From the NCBI GenBank assembly GCA_018667995.1, contig JABIQT010000385.1, forward strand, positions 1-5,910: 5,910 nt of DNA. Direction: 5' to 3'. Position numbers and translations under genes: made by a program. The DNA is from Candidatus Latescibacterota bacterium. Lineage in GTDB: Bacteria > JAAXHH01 > JABIQT01. Positions 139 through 5,901 of the stretch are shown piece by piece; the first letter of the stretch is position 1; every line of letters begins with the position of its first letter. The notes under the pieces were generated by a model. That model did not search any database and had not been told where the DNA came from. It saw only the letters and a program-made list of their open reading frames with translations.

Positions 139-1170
139 ATGTCGGAAATTTCACATAATATACCGGAGAAGCTTCCCGAATATGCCTTTCAGCCGTTAGA
201 TCACGCTGATAAAATAGACGCGGTGTACACCTATGCCGACATGTCTGACCCAGTATGGTATGAAGAGTACAAGAAGTACATGAAGAAAGAGCCGAGCACG
301 GGGAGACATCAGAATCACAACGAGCTGGAGTATTCTATTAAGTGTCTCAGATTATACTGCCCCTTTGTCGATAGGATCTTCATCGTAACCGCCGGTCCCA
401 TACCTGTTTGGCATGACGCACTCGATAGACAGATCATTATTATAGACCAGAATGAAATACTGGGAGACGAGTGCTTAAAACCTACTTTTAAAAGCACCAG
501 TGTTGAGGCCTATCTGCACAAGATACCCGGTCTTTCTGAATGCTTCATGTACCTGAACGACGATTATTTCATTGGAAACTATCTAACGAGGGAGATGTGG
601 TTTCAAGACAATCTGCCCGTTGTAGATATGTATATAAGCAAATGGGACTTTGACGTTCCCGATATCGATTCGTTTCAAAATCTGAAACCGGTGCAGAATG
701 CGGAAAACACCCAGCCCTATTCGATGCGTACGAATGTTCACATAGCCCATCTGTACCACACAAACCGCTGCATTTACCGGCAATACGGCTTGTTGCCAAA
801 TCTAAATATCACGCATCAGGCGCATCTCTTACGCAGAAGTTGTATGGAGGATGCGTGGCGGATTTTCAGGCGGGAATTAACGGAATGCGTGGCCATAGCA
901 AGAACGAGAACCAGAGACGAGGTCCATATGTCCCTGCTGTCTCATTTCGTAGGCGCCATATCTGGACGGATGCTTTTAAGATTGGGAGCAGATTCGCCCA
1001 TGCAGATGATGAGCGTGAAAATGCACAAACAGGAACAGATAGACCGGTGTTTGGAAACTAAGCCGCATCTGTTCTGCGTCAACCATGTGAATGCAGATTC
1101 AGCCGAAGCTTTTGAAGCATTAATGCAGTATCATTTGGTCAGGCATCATTTCGATTCACTGAATCACTGA
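139..1170 (+). CDS. Stealth-family hexose-1-phosphate transferase (capsule/glycan phosphotransferase)
   Basis: The 343-residue protein contains the conserved regions of the Stealth family in order. CR1 is at residues 26-40 (IDAVYTYADMSDPVW, against the usual D-V-V-Y-T-W-V-D-G-S-D-P-x-W). CR2 is at about 60-146, including NELEYS, RIFIVT, PTF-S-x-x-V/I-E, LHKIPGLSE and YLNDDYF. CR3 is at about 222-272 (NITHQAHLLRRS...AW). A weak CR4 is at 312-325 (FCVNH, where family members usually have C-x-N-D). Family members move a sugar-1-phosphate from a nucleotide sugar onto a growing glycan, forming phosphodiester-linked capsules or surface polymers; the substrate here cannot be read from the sequence. 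The start is supported by AAGGAAAGGAG at 123-133, five bases before ATG. CR1 has lost the usual Trp and Gly (TYADMSD), a mild divergence. The 3' end overlaps the opposing sulfotransferase gene by 32 bp. Confidence 0.9.
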   Translation: MSEISHNIPEKLPEYAFQPLDHADKIDAVYTYADMSDPVWYEEYKKYMKKEPSTGRHQNHNELEYSIKCLRLYCPFVDRIFIVTAGPIPVWHDALDRQIIIIDQNEILGDECLKPTFKSTSVEAYLHKIPGLSECFMYLNDDYFIGNYLTREMWFQDNLPVVDMYISKWDFDVPDIDSFQNLKPVQNAENTQPYSMRTNVHIAHLYHTNRCIYRQYGLLPNLNITHQAHLLRRSCMEDAWRIFRRELTECVAIARTRTRDEVHMSLLSHFVGAISGRMLLRLGADSPMQMMSVKMHKQEQIDRCLETKPHLFCVNHVNADSAEAFEALMQYHLVRHHFDSLNH

Positions 1171-2014
1171 TGCCCAACGGTCCAAAATCAACACCTCGAT
1201 AGAACGACGCATAGGAGACAATTTTTGCCTTCTGCTCGTCATTGAGATGCAGTCTACCCCTTCCTACGAACCCATAATTCTTCTTGGTAGGCTTCTGATC
1301 GCTCGCCTCAACAATCTCACGCAGCAATGTTTCCGCTCTGCCTTCCTCGAGAAAATCCAGGATCCGCTGCAATTCCTGGAGGGGGTCCGATTTCAAACGT
1401 TCATATTGGCACAAGTAGACGTGGCCGTCTTTCATGAGGTTCGATGTCATCCATCCACAATAAAAACCAAAGTACCACGGAACCACCATTTCGATTATGA
1501 ACGAGGTCTTCTCCGTATCGGATAACTGCTTCCAAGAATCGAAATTCATAAATGCGACAGGGACGATGAATCCAGTCCTGTCATTGTTAAGGTGATCCAG
1601 ATAGCTGATGACCATATCGAATATGTTACGGACCTGGACGATTACCCCGATATCAGCCTTTTCGACCATGCGATGAACGGACTGGCTGTACCGGGTATGC
1701 GTGCGCGGCGTAAACACAGGCCGCGATCGTGAGAGCTGCATAAAACGCATTATCTCTGGAACTTCTTCTCTGAGGATGTCTTTCGGCATGAGTCGAAGAG
1801 TGTCCCAACCGAGTCCTTCTTCGAGTAAGACAGATAGCCAGGTTGACCCAGACTTCGGGGCCGATATGAGCCAGGCATGTTTTCTTTTTTCAGGCAGGTG
1901 ACGAAAAATGAACTCGTCTGAATACAGCACTCCATAGGGATTTTTCAATTTCCGAAATAACCGCCGTAAAAACGTAGCCAATAGGAGTTTCCTGGGGATA
2001 AGGTAGAATGCCAT
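1139..2014 (-). CDS. Sulfotransferase-domain protein (PAPS-dependent)
   Basis: This 291-residue protein shows the signature residues of the PAPS sulfotransferase fold. The 5'-phosphosulfate-binding loop is at 51-60 (SAPKSGSTWL). A likely catalytic His is H106 in TPRTHTR, corresponding to the KTH motif. The 3'-phosphate-binding motif is at 124-138 (VIVQVRNIFDMVISY, with R129 and S137). A late G-rich/basic segment (FVGRGRLHLNDEQ, about 250-262) resembles the region that contacts PAPS near the C-terminus. Family members transfer sulfate from PAPS to a hydroxyl or amine of a glycan, lipid or small molecule; the acceptor is unknown. The N-terminus is basic and hydrophobic (about residues 1-25) and could sit against the membrane, but it is not a clear signal peptide. 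ATG at 2014 is the only ATG upstream of the PAPS loop. It has no good Shine-Dalgarno, but a strong promoter lies very close. The gene diverges from the peptide operon and converges on the Stealth gene. Confidence 0.85.
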   Translation of the reverse strand: MAFYLIPRKLLLATFLRRLFRKLKNPYGVLYSDEFIFRHLPEKRKHAWLISAPKSGSTWLSVLLEEGLGWDTLRLMPKDILREEVPEIMRFMQLSRSRPVFTPRTHTRYSQSVHRMVEKADIGVIVQVRNIFDMVISYLDHLNNDRTGFIVPVAFMNFDSWKQLSDTEKTSFIIEMVVPWYFGFYCGWMTSNLMKDGHVYLCQYERLKSDPLQELQRILDFLEEGRAETLLREIVEASDQKPTKKNYGFVGRGRLHLNDEQKAKIVSYASFYRGVDFGPLGISDSVNRNDA

Positions 2015-2237: not shown

Positions 2238-2243
2238 AGGAGG
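2238..2243 (+). promoter_or_regulatory. Perfect ribosome binding site of the 48-codon peptide gene
   Basis: AGGAGG lies seven bases before the ATG at 2251. It is the strongest Shine-Dalgarno in the window and the main evidence, apart from the peptide sequence itself, that this short ORF is translated at a high level. The enzyme genes downstream have weaker or no such sites, as expected when a precursor peptide must be made in excess. Confidence 0.8.
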
Positions 2244-2250
2244 CAACTCA

Positions 2251-2397
2251 ATGGATCTGTCTAATGCCCCGTCCGGTCAAAATCGCAAACTGAAACATTG
2301 GACGCGTCCCAAACTGCAATGTTACGCGATCCCCAAAGCGACTCAGCAAGGTTCGGGCCCATCTGGTTCTGACTCTAGCTCCACCTCAGAAGCCTAG
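2251..2397 (+). CDS. Putative RiPP precursor peptide, lasso-like, Ser-rich C-terminus (48 aa)
   Basis: ATG at 2251 follows an ideal AGGAGG site, and the frame closes at TAG 2395-2397. The N-terminal half is a basic leader holding W17-T-R-P20-K-L22. This matches the Y-x-x-P-x-L pattern by which lasso leaders are bound by their PqqD-like B1/RRE protein, and such a protein is encoded at 3527. T31 would be the conserved Thr just before the cleavage point (position -2 or -3). The C-terminal part reads QGSGPSGSDSSSTSEA. If the core starts at G34, D41 is residue 8; if at Q33, it is residue 9. Both spacings suit a lasso macrolactam acceptor. The tail SSSTSEA offers several Ser/Thr to the kinase encoded next, but it has no bulky 'plug' residue, which is unusual for a threaded lasso. 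Alternatives are another RRE-dependent RiPP, or a small regulator. I do not recognise a named family member. Confidence 0.72.
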   Translation: MDLSNAPSGQNRKLKHWTRPKLQCYAIPKATQQGSGPSGSDSSSTSEA

Positions 2398-2446: not shown

Positions 2447-3373
2447 ATGACTAAGCACGACAATACAGCAAACGTGCCCTGCTATAGCATTTACGGATTA
2501 AATGTGGCATCGGATATTGCACTTCCAGCTGCTGCTCTGGGTGATGCGGTTCCTGATGTTTACATTCGCTATGGTAAGGTCCCGCAAGAACTCGATAAGA
2601 CCACATTCCAAAATCGCCAGTATCAGATCACGCAGAACTGCATTCTCGTCCGAAAAAGAGCGGCGAGGTTTCTTGTATGCAGGGGTAGTCAGATAACCAT
2701 CGATCCTGCGCCGCAGGCAACCGAAGCCGTGATCCTCTACAGATTGCTACAAGTACCACTCATGGCGCTACTGTACCAGAGGAGGAGGATCGTCCTCCAT
2801 GGCAGTGCTATCTGTGTGGACGGCAAAGCTGTCGTCTTTATGGGGCAGTCGGGCCGAGGGAAGTCTACGCTCGCAGCTGCCTTCCGAAGCAGACAGTACC
2901 CACTTCTAAGCGATGACATCTGTGTCGTCTCGCTTGCGTCGACCGGGAAATTGTTGGTGGTTCCCGGATATCCTCAGATCAAAATACATCGTGAGACTGC
3001 CCGTCAAATCGGTATCTCGGTCGATGATCTCGAACCACTACCTGTCGATCTGAAGCTTGAGAAATACACCCTCGAAACAACTGACAACTTCGTCCGATTT
3101 CCAATCCCACTTCGAGCAATTTTCGAAATCGATACAGCACACTGTGACGAGACGAGATTGACTCCGCTGCATGGGTACGAAAAGCAATTTGCGCTGATCG
3201 GGAATACATTTCTACCAGGGCTTGTCAAAGCTCTGGGACGGGAGCAGTCCTCTTTCCAGCAGTACGCGGAGGCATTCAGAGATATCCCTCTGAAACGGGT
3301 GAACCGCCCAGACTGTCTGTCTAAACTGGATAGTCTGGTAGAGAGGCTTGAGGGCGAATGGCAGTCCACATGA
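2447..3373 (+). CDS. HPr-kinase-like P-loop kinase (lasso-cluster / HprK-related type)
   Basis: The 308-residue protein has a variable N-terminal half and then an HPr kinase/phosphorylase-like core. L-H-G-S-A-I at 117-122 precedes a Walker A loop, GQSGRGKST, at 133-141. An acidic LLSDD at 153-157 fits the metal-binding/catalytic acidic segment, and VPGYPQIKIH at 172-181 is typical of HprK-related proteins. True HPr kinases act on Ser46 of HPr in sugar control. Relatives such as the paeninodin-type kinases phosphorylate a Ser of a lasso precursor, and the 'HprK-related kinase A' group sits beside PqqD-like proteins. The position 49 bp after a Ser-rich precursor and before a PqqD-like gene favours a peptide-modifying role. 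No HPr or PTS gene is present. The ATG at 2447 lacks a good Shine-Dalgarno, so translation may depend on coupling or be modest. The kinase activity and target are inferred. Confidence 0.85.
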   Translation: MTKHDNTANVPCYSIYGLNVASDIALPAAALGDAVPDVYIRYGKVPQELDKTTFQNRQYQITQNCILVRKRAARFLVCRGSQITIDPAPQATEAVILYRLLQVPLMALLYQRRRIVLHGSAICVDGKAVVFMGQSGRGKSTLAAAFRSRQYPLLSDDICVVSLASTGKLLVVPGYPQIKIHRETARQIGISVDDLEPLPVDLKLEKYTLETTDNFVRFPIPLRAIFEIDTAHCDETRLTPLHGYEKQFALIGNTFLPGLVKALGREQSSFQQYAEAFRDIPLKRVNRPDCLSKLDSLVERLEGEWQST

Positions 3374-3526: not shown

Positions 3527-3832
3527 ATGGGTAACGGACCTGTCATCAACTTGCAGACGATGATCAAGGCATCTGATGAGATTGTCAGCAGTAAACTTGA
3601 CGATCAAGTGGTTATGATGAGCATCGATAAAGGCGCGTACTTCGGTTTGGATGAAATCGGCAGTCGTATCTGGGAGTTGCTGGCGTCGCCTCGTACTGTA
3701 TCTGGTCTCTGCAGCATCCTGATACAGGAGTATGACGTGCCCCGCGAGGAATGCGAGCAGGATATCCTGGCCTTGCTCAATGAGCTCGCCGAAAAGAACC
3801 TGCTACAGATTACGGAAGAGCAATCTGCTTAG
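3527..3832 (+). CDS. PqqD-like RRE protein (lasso B1-type leader-binding protein)
   Basis: This 101-residue protein has the PqqD fold signature. After an N-terminal beta region (VVMMSIDKGAYFGLDEIG) comes the helix GSRIWELL (about 45-52), giving Y-F-G-L-D-E-I-G-S-R-I-W-E-L-L at 38-52. A C-terminal helical part follows (EQDILALLNELAEKNLL, about 77-93). Proteins of this size and pattern are stand-alone RiPP recognition elements. In lasso clusters (B1) they bind the leader Y-x-x-P-x-L motif and present the precursor to its modifying enzymes, and relatives accompany HprK-related kinases. The natural partner here is the W-x-x-P-x-L leader encoded at 2251. AGGGGA at 3513-3518, eight bases before ATG, supports the start. 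The leader peptidase domain (B2, transglutaminase-like), sometimes fused or adjacent, is not found here. Confidence 0.88.
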   Translation: MGNGPVINLQTMIKASDEIVSSKLDDQVVMMSIDKGAYFGLDEIGSRIWELLASPRTVSGLCSILIQEYDVPREECEQDILALLNELAEKNLLQITEEQSA

Positions 3833-3993
3833 TCCGTCGGCACTTGGTGTGCGAGCGTGTCTATACGCTGAAATTATCCGGGACATCTGCTTGGTTGATC
3901 CCAACCCTAGTACCCCAGTCCAAGAGTAACCTCGATACACCGTCATGAGAAATCTGGTGCAGGCTCAATGCGCATCCCCCACCTCTGTCACTC

Positions 3994-5250
3994 ATGCTAC
4001 AACCCGCCCGTATGACCGAACAATTTCTGCAAGAACTCCCACTCGAATTTCGCCTTCTGCTCTGCTGCCTCCGGACGCCACCGAACAGCACGGAGGATTT
4101 TGAGCAGTTAACCTCACATCATCTGGATTGGGATCGATTTCTCAGTTGGTGCGACCGGCATAGAGTCGTTCCACAGGTATACGGTAATCTGAGCGGCGCG
4201 TGGAAAAAGGCTCTGCCGAAGATGGTTCTTCGTGATCTGAGAAACCAGTTTCTTGAGAACACAAAACACGCAATGCTGCGAAGCGCTGCTTTGGTGAATC
4301 TGCTAAAGCGCTTTGCAGAGAGGGATCTCCCGGTTCTATCCCTGAAGGGTACCGCACTGGCACTCGGCATATATGGCGACTTGAACCTGCGCCATGCGGG
4401 TGATATGGACCTTCTCATTGCGCCTGAGCATTTCGATCAGGCCGATCACATCATCCGGCATGCTGGCTATCGGAATATCACACCTGGCATACGACACCGA
4501 GAACATCTTCATCATCTCTTTTCAGATGCCGGATACGTCTCAGATGCGGAAGGAATCCCCAATACCCATCGGATTCGCATCGAGTTGCACTGGAGGTTGA
4601 CGAATCTCATATCACTTCCCATGGATTTCCATGAGGTATACTACCGCTCACAGACCACGGTAATCGCAGGCTATCCGGAGGCTGTTCTTAATCCCGAAGA
4701 CCGGTTGATTTACCTGATGACGCATGGTAGTGAACACGCTTGGTATCGACTCGGGTGGCTCTGTGACGTGGCGCAGATCTTGCACCGACCCGAGATTCTC
4801 GATTGGCCTCAGATTGTGGCGCGAACCCGAGATCTGGGACTTGAACGTGTGGTGGATCAAACGATGCACTTAGCACACGTCCTATTGGGGACTCCCATTC
4901 CAGCTCTGATGAGCCCTGAGCCTGAAACGGGGAAACAGACTGCATACTTGGCTACCTCCGCCATCGGCGCTATGCTTGAACCAAATTCCTTTTTGATCGA
5001 ATGGAAGAAACACTCAGTTACACAGATCCTGAAAGGCACGATTTACAGGCTCAGACTGCATCGCGGTATCCGCCATAAAGCACGCATATTGAGACTGATG
5101 TTGGTCCGCCCAGAAGACTGGGACGAGATTTCTCTGCCCCGGCCACTCTTCCCACTCTACTATGTGCTGAATCCAATTCTCTTGATCTTACGGCGTTACC
5201 GGAGATATCGCAGAGGACACAACCAGCGGAATCAAAGTGGACGCCCGTAA
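3994..5250 (+). CDS. Nucleotidyltransferase-family protein (NTP_transf_5-like), lasso-tailoring type
   Basis: This 418-residue protein carries the pattern of the large nucleotidyltransferase family often found in lasso and exopolysaccharide loci. LSLKG-x-A-L-A at 116-123 is followed by IYGD, then R133-H-A-G-D137-M-D139-L-L-I, whose two Asp residues are the likely metal ligands of a polymerase-beta-type active site. IELHWRL at 196-202 could supply the third acidic residue. Further family features are LMTHGSEHAW (241-250) and RLGWLCDVA (252-260). The C-terminal 100 or so residues are Arg-rich and hydrophobic. In pseudomycoidin biosynthesis a protein of this family, acting after the kinase, was reported to add hexose to the phosphorylated peptide. 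A similar second-step role is inferred here; nucleotidylation is the other option. Neither ATG 3994 nor the in-frame ATG 4012 has a Shine-Dalgarno, so the start is uncertain by six codons; an in-frame TGA at 3946 limits it upstream. Confidence 0.83.
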   Translation: MLQPARMTEQFLQELPLEFRLLLCCLRTPPNSTEDFEQLTSHHLDWDRFLSWCDRHRVVPQVYGNLSGAWKKALPKMVLRDLRNQFLENTKHAMLRSAALVNLLKRFAERDLPVLSLKGTALALGIYGDLNLRHAGDMDLLIAPEHFDQADHIIRHAGYRNITPGIRHREHLHHLFSDAGYVSDAEGIPNTHRIRIELHWRLTNLISLPMDFHEVYYRSQTTVIAGYPEAVLNPEDRLIYLMTHGSEHAWYRLGWLCDVAQILHRPEILDWPQIVARTRDLGLERVVDQTMHLAHVLLGTPIPALMSPEPETGKQTAYLATSAIGAMLEPNSFLIEWKKHSVTQILKGTIYRLRLHRGIRHKARILRLMLVRPEDWDEISLPRPLFPLYYVLNPILLILRRYRRYRRGHNQRNQSGRP

Positions 5251-5499: not shown

Positions 5500-5901
5500 A
5501 TGATGAAGGACAGCACCACAGATCAGTGGCGTGGGGCGCCCATTCTCTGGCTCAAGCGCGCGGACATTCTCCATCCCCATGAACCAGAGATAGAGGGGCA
5601 AGTCGAGACCATCAGAGCGATCCTTCAACATGGATGGGACCTCGATCGCGTACCGCCTATTCCTTTGGCTGATGAAGCTCAGCAACCGTATCGTGCCCTC
5701 AGCGGGGCGCACCGGATCGCGGCCGCAGTGCGAGCGAGACTGCCAGGAATCCCCTGTGTCGCGGTTCCTTGTGGGCCCGGTGACTATGATCGCCTTATTC
5801 GCATACCCGATGACGAGCTGGCTGTTCTGTTTCGGGAACAAGGAATGATCGCCGCAGCCGAAGCTACTCGCACCGATTTCCACGAACAGGTGATCCCGTG
5901 A
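5500..5901 (+). CDS. ParB/sulfiredoxin-like domain protein, possibly SerK-like
   Basis: The 133-residue protein is a single ParB-N/sulfiredoxin-type domain. LKRADILHPHEPEI (18-31) is followed by a helix, then VPPIPLAD (51-58) and the conserved turn ALSGAHRIAAAV (66-77), corresponding to the D-G-x-H-R loop that binds phosphate or nucleotide in this superfamily. It lacks the DNA-binding and dimerisation domains of true ParB, so a chromosome-partition role is unlikely. P26-H-E28 resembles the P-H-E of SerK, the ADP-dependent free-serine kinase of Thermococcus, where the Glu is important for catalysis. The usual Asp of D-G-H-H-R is Ser here (S68). A nucleotide-dependent kinase or phosphate-handling role in the cluster is possible but inferred. 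Two consecutive ATG codons (5500, 5503) are possible starts, and the Shine-Dalgarno is weak. Stop codons lie immediately after the gene, so the next gene would begin beyond the window. Confidence 0.7.
   Translation: MMKDSTTDQWRGAPILWLKRADILHPHEPEIEGQVETIRAILQHGWDLDRVPPIPLADEAQQPYRALSGAHRIAAAVRARLPGIPCVAVPCGPGDYDRLIRIPDDELAVLFREQGMIAAAEATRTDFHEQVIP

Follow-up and report, generated by a model that had tools for sequence, protein, structure and literature searches.

In lasso peptide biosynthesis, B2 cuts off the leader and C makes the macrolactam. Three groups of described systems come closest to the locus reported here. The first is the Bsf cluster of Bradymonas sediminis (BsfA, BsfK, BsfB1, BsfB2, BsfC and BsfN), in which the kinase BsfK, aided by the RRE, phosphorylates Ser3 of the precursor core (PMC10368454). 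The second comprises the paeninodin/pseudomycoidin-type clusters (PadeK, PsmK, PsmN, PbaB1), where PsmN adds hexoses to the phosphorylated lasso peptide (PMC9266682). The third is that of the linear polyphosphorylated peptides (LPP; LppA, K, B, S, D, N), reported from Bacillota only; the RRE holds a [Y/W]xxPx[L/V] segment (PMC13381572).

The stretch of DNA that we analysed, called here the window, is contig C1043 in its entirety, 5910 bp from a draft genome of 1165 contigs with 85% completeness, so that the neighbourhood is cut off on either side; the contig stops 9 bp past its last open reading frame (ORF). We propose that a small ORF of this window very probably encodes a genuine RiPP precursor and, with a lower but still favourable probability, that this precursor gives rise to a lasso peptide of the kinase/nucleotidyltransferase type whose B2 and C proteins come from outside the contig.

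The probable precursor gene and its neighbours

The earlier note had described a gene of 48 codons behind a perfect AGGAGG, with W17, P20, L22, T31 and D41 as its key residues, and the exact coordinates (Table 1) and translation (MDLSNAPSGQNRKLKHWTRPKLQCYAIPKATQQGSGPSGSDSSSTSEA) agree with all of these. D41 is the sole Asp beyond residue 2; a further acidic residue is E47. In the register of the homologous precursor described below, W17, P20, L22 and T31 occupy leader positions -16, -13, -11 and -2. The lasso leader feature of a [Y/W]xxPx[L/V/I] motif with a Thr at -2 is thus found as W17xxP20xL22 and T31, the -2 position being taken from that alignment. Another lasso feature is an Asp or Glu at core 7-9: D41 stands at core 9 if T31 is at -2, a place where an acidic residue by chance is not improbable.

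Table 1. Coordinates of the features of the window
Feature	Position	Strand	Basis
Stealth-family protein (CR1-CR3)	139..1170	+	family match
Sulfotransferase (PF00685), PAPS-type, divergent from precursor	1139..2014	-	family match; association with the cluster putative
Shine-Dalgarno AGGAGG, 7 nt ahead of ATG	2238..2243	+	sequence
Precursor peptide gene, 48 codons + stop	2251..2397	+	ATG 2251, stop 2395-2397
Leader, residues 1-32	2251..2346	+	predicted register, by gapless alignment to the L060 precursor
Core, residues 33-48, QGSGPSGSDSSSTSEA	2347..2394	+	predicted from L060 register and BsfK precedent
HprK-like kinase	2447..3373	+	family assignment, catalytic motif
Discrete RRE (B1, PqqD family)	3527..3832	+	NF033536 lasso_PqqD_Bac, PDB match TbiB1
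NTP_transf_5 (PF14907) nucleotidyltransferase-like protein, PsmN/BsfN-type	3994..5250	+	family match

The H-G-G-G-K-S-D-D motif, a feature of the kinases of phosphorylated lasso peptides, is present in the window kinase: H118, G133, G136, G138, K139, S140, D156 and D157 correspond at all eight positions to the BsfK motif (H148 to D187) minus 30. The RRE scores 83.8 bits, for a cut-off of 80, against the NCBIfam model NF033536 (lasso peptide biosynthesis PqqD family chaperone), and its PDB matches are TbiB1 (the best, E=1.6e-16), the paeninodin-type PbaB1 (1.7e-13) and the LPP RRE LppB (6.9e-7). It carries an Asp at the position of LppB N33 and PbaB1 G42, as does TbiB1, and another at the position of LppB D70. 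Because of the first Asp, where paeninodin RREs have Gly42, it is not of the paeninodin type, despite the Trp of the leader.

On the other side of the precursor, the sulfotransferase is a possible candidate for a tailoring enzyme, and its position together with that of the Stealth gene is suggestive of membership of the cluster. An earlier article (PMC8498205, citing Zhu et al. 2016) already mentions kinase-type lasso clusters that begin with a putative sulfotransferase gene, so that the presence of one here is not new by itself. With the window proteins as queries, no sulfotransferase or Stealth relatives were found at the other loci. Two further frames were noted at the ends of the window. 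Positions 5500-5901, after the nucleotidyltransferase, hold an ORF of 133 amino acids (LSGAHRIAAAVRA) that by eye is ParB-N-terminal-like, with no confident family match. Positions 1-69 encode the 22 C-terminal residues (...YFNQRYGDLLEQLGYG) of a further upstream protein that the contig end truncates; they resemble the tail of a sulfotransferase, but no paralogue was found in the source genome, and the resemblance was left out of the argument.

Like the Bsf cluster, the window has a precursor, an HprK-like kinase with identical spacing of the eight motif residues, a discrete RRE and a nucleotidyltransferase, a Ser at core 3 and an Asp in the ring, but its leader carries Trp instead of Tyr, its -2 residue is Thr instead of Ile, its ring acceptor is at 9 instead of 8, and its contig has no B2, C or D. 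With the paeninodin/pseudomycoidin-type clusters it shares the WxxPxL leader and the association of a kinase with NTP_transf_5, some of them also having a sulfotransferase gene, whereas its core is different and its precursor ends in Ala and not in the kinase-modified C-terminal Ser. Like the LPP loci, it combines a precursor with Ser3, a kinase, an RRE and an NTP-transferase, and no macrolactam cyclase gene is on its truncated contig, yet no SpI peptidase or exporter was found, the LPP leader consensus is unmatched and the RRE is more distant.

Chance expectation and a homologous precursor

As a null model, we took the intergenic region 2015-2446 and shuffled its dinucleotides 5000 times. A frame of 30-110 codons is unremarkable by itself, as it occurs in 96% of the shuffles, and in 3% with a strong Shine-Dalgarno. 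The combination of a Shine-Dalgarno with aromatic-xxPx[LIV] and a suitably spaced Thr appeared in 0.04% of them (0.0004 per shuffled region), and a stricter motif including an acidic residue, again with a Shine-Dalgarno, in 0 of 5000. Across 294 kb of other loci, the filter on Shine-Dalgarno and motif picked out 12 ORFs, each precursor-like and at a lasso-type locus. These frequencies argue against the reading in which the frame is open by chance and the kinase and RRE have their true substrate off the contig or at another lasso locus of the genome. In favour of that reading, a leader profile built from 14 other precursors, or from the external ones only, scores the ORF at background, a second WxxPxL arises by chance in the window (frame 3844-3948), and codon usage is neutral, the ORF ranking top of the six frames yet below 97% of in-frame gene windows. 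The NCBIfam precursor models do not match the ORF, a point against the lasso precursor. On balance we hold a chance frame to be unlikely, for two further reasons: the ORF stands directly upstream of the kinase, at the usual site for such genes, and its top six-frame match is a true precursor, aligned in register.

This match was obtained by searching 8,786 six-frame segments from all loci, among which the precursor of locus L060 ranked first by both raw score and Z-score; two other precursors ranked 4 and 6 by Z-score. The alignment spans 31 residues without a gap (KHWTRPKLQCYAIPKATQQGSGPSGSDSSST with RSWERPIVRKESIASITQKSGRPSDSDHGTS) and scores 50 against a shuffle mean of 21, with P about 5e-5, a value which becomes 0.0007 when W17 and P20 are held fixed and 0.004 when L22 and T31 are fixed too. 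Common to both peptides, without gaps, are W-x-R-P, the Thr, P5, S6, S8 and the ring Asp at 9. L060 is by Pfam a complete lasso cluster, with kinase, B2 (PF13471), B1 (PqqD) and C (Asn_synthase + GATase); the precursor gene is next to C there, encoded on the opposite strand. No second locus was found in 4 genomes from the family and phylum of the L060 genome.

The shared register places core 1 at Q33, S35 at core Ser3 and D41 at core 9, from which a ring of nine residues from Q33 to D41, followed by the tail SSSTSEA, is predicted, with S35 as the probable candidate for phosphorylation. An alternative core start at G34, giving a ring of eight residues (G34-D41), fits the -17/-14/-12 rule of Bsf, but it turns the -2 residue into Gln and loses the L060 register; we rejected it as less supported because the -2 Thr is lost.

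Related kinase loci and the lasso-type loci of the source genome

An alignment of three kinases retrieved 15 loci in public genomes, and more came from a sample of 384 genomes. A single-sequence kinase scan of the source-genome contigs gave no match, whereas the three-kinase alignment did work. The kinase search of viral contigs and the comparison of the whole window with a plasmid collection gave no match either; no kinase relative was found among 15 genomes of the same order, and the searches returned no close relative of the window locus. The comparison set was made of 27 distinct kinase loci, the window being left out. In this comparison of related HprK-like/PqqD-like loci, which the earlier note had proposed as a check, a small ORF with a [YW]xxPx[L/V/I] motif and a downstream Thr is found in 20 of these 27, most commonly immediately before the kinase and in its orientation, as in the window. 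Seven loci have no motif ORF, four of them near-identical loci from Caldilineaceae. The window leader is one residue shorter than that of most relatives and does not have their VYG/VHG stretch. In nearly all relatives, B1 stands beside B2, which is not the case in the window, and all loci but L062, 26 of the 27, have B2, C or both.

Some of these loci deserve mention in their own right. At L041:6852-7850, five tandem precursor genes upstream of the kinase have nearly identical leaders and variable cores. The Caldilineaceae loci L032, L033, L035 and L038 present kinase, B1 and B2 consecutively, with no cyclase and no precursor found. L062:3672-7271 associates a kinase, a nucleotidyltransferase, an ABC exporter, an RRE and an ORF of 32 amino acids (MERKEYTKPRLTDWGCISEVTRNNNQNGTIPK) without a core Asp/Glu; no B2 or C is present on its 8.6-kb contig, and its peptide is a candidate linear LPP-like product.

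The source genome holds other lasso-type loci, on contigs C1103, C855 and C127: B2 (PF13471) occurs on C1103 and C855, the C cyclase on all three. C1103 carries a nucleotidyltransferase, B2, B1, a kinase, a precursor and C. Its locus is like the window in having the RRE nearest to that of the window by identity (about 50%), a kinase at 34% and the related core pattern P5-G7-D9, and unlike it in the presence of B2 and C, a Tyr leader and a core without Ser; the tree that groups the two RREs has weak support (50). The C1103 precursor (MKVYSRPVLRRLGRVEDVTLNTQQPTGPDAQIYADDPYGPV) has a T at -2, and its P5, G7 and D9 are in register with the window core; compared with the window precursor, P is about 0.02 whether whole sequences or cores are shuffled. 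Two other comparisons with this precursor were discarded: an extended N-terminal similarity (P about 3e-4), as the true start, an ATG preceded by AGGAGG, is 36 nt further downstream than the GTG first taken, and an alignment of TQQ with TQQ, which would move the Asp to position 12.

In the C855 and C127 loci, the precursors (L023:14633-14794(-), 17565-17723(-) and 11632-11859(-); L021:1-170(-)) share ...[VK]TL[TQ]SSY after the leader, have no consistent Asp/Glu at core 7-9 and include two with a very basic tail containing RGWDKRRRR; lying beside Asn-synthase-like proteins, they may lead to a product that is not a standard lasso. On a further contig of the same genome, C755 (L022:1021-3879), a PqqD protein, a radical SAM-like protein, an HprK-like protein and a small ORF with a YIPPEL leader motif are found together: this is a radical-SAM-type RiPP locus with a kinase.

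Predicted maturation and its alternatives

By analogy with the described systems, we infer the following scenario. The discrete RRE would bind the W-x-x-P-x-L of the leader and present the peptide to the HprK-like kinase, which would phosphorylate it before leader removal, most likely on core Ser3 (S35), the tail serines being alternatives. The B2 protease would then cleave after Q32 and the C cyclase would link the Q33 amino group with the D41 side chain, generating a 9-residue ring and a 7-residue tail. B2 and C would be encoded either just past the contig ends or at another locus; on the 5.9-kb contig, whose ends are cut, there is neither a B2 (PF13471) nor an Asn synthase-like C gene. Finally, the nucleotidyltransferase-like protein would decorate the phosphate, probably with a hexose.

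The earlier note had already taken the ORF for a lasso-type precursor and a substrate of the enzymes encoded after it. The motif, the RRE, the kinase and the L060 homologue support this reading, qualified by the negative leader profile and by the lack of B2 and C on the contig; its lasso part stays conditional. Indeed, because B2 and C are absent from the contig, lasso maturation is deduced and a linear phosphopeptide is possible, and because the contig is truncated the choice between the two is not a firm one. An LPP-like product would use the same precursor, RRE, kinase and nucleotidyltransferase, with no macrolactam, another peptidase and S35 (poly)phosphorylated. The contig indeed corresponds to an LPP core minus peptidase and exporter, without B2 or C, and L062 offers, outside the window, a second gene set of this kind; moreover, LPP loci lie among polysaccharide genes and their core Ser3 is phosphorylated (PMC13381572). 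Against a linear product, no archaeal-type signal peptidase (SpI-like) was found in the window or in the 85%-complete genome, and the window leader (WTRPKLQCYAIPKATQQGS) does not match the LPP consensus YxxPxVLxHQxIxFETxxS. In addition, search scores put the RRE nearer to its lasso counterparts than to LppB, the closest precursor homologue sits in a cluster with B2 and C, and D41 is at the lasso ring position. We regard the linear product as the main rival, distinctly less probable than the lasso peptide.

A decayed or partial remnant cluster, having lost B2 and C and retaining the ORF as a fossil precursor, would account for a B1 without B2 beside it on a short contig, but the kinase motif is complete and the frames of the RRE, the nucleotidyltransferase and the sulfotransferase are unbroken, which makes such decay highly improbable.

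If the preferred reading of a lasso precursor holds, this gene, which is likely to be missed by automatic annotation, adds to the kinase-type lasso clusters a specific prediction, namely a ring from Q33 to D41 and a phosphate on S35, from a poorly sampled lineage with few sequenced relatives. A more speculative view, to which we give about the same modest weight as to the linear product, is that of a kinase/RRE/nucleotidyltransferase RiPP locus without its own B2 and C: it would make either a linear phosphopeptide of the LPP-like sort, from a new lineage and with another leader peptidase, or a lasso peptide matured in trans by another locus, decorated by the sulfotransferase and the Stealth phosphotransferase. 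These two enzymes, if they are true members of the pathway, would represent a little-explored decoration, and the locus bears on whether the RRE-kinase-nucleotidyltransferase module acts without macrolactam formation outside Bacillota.
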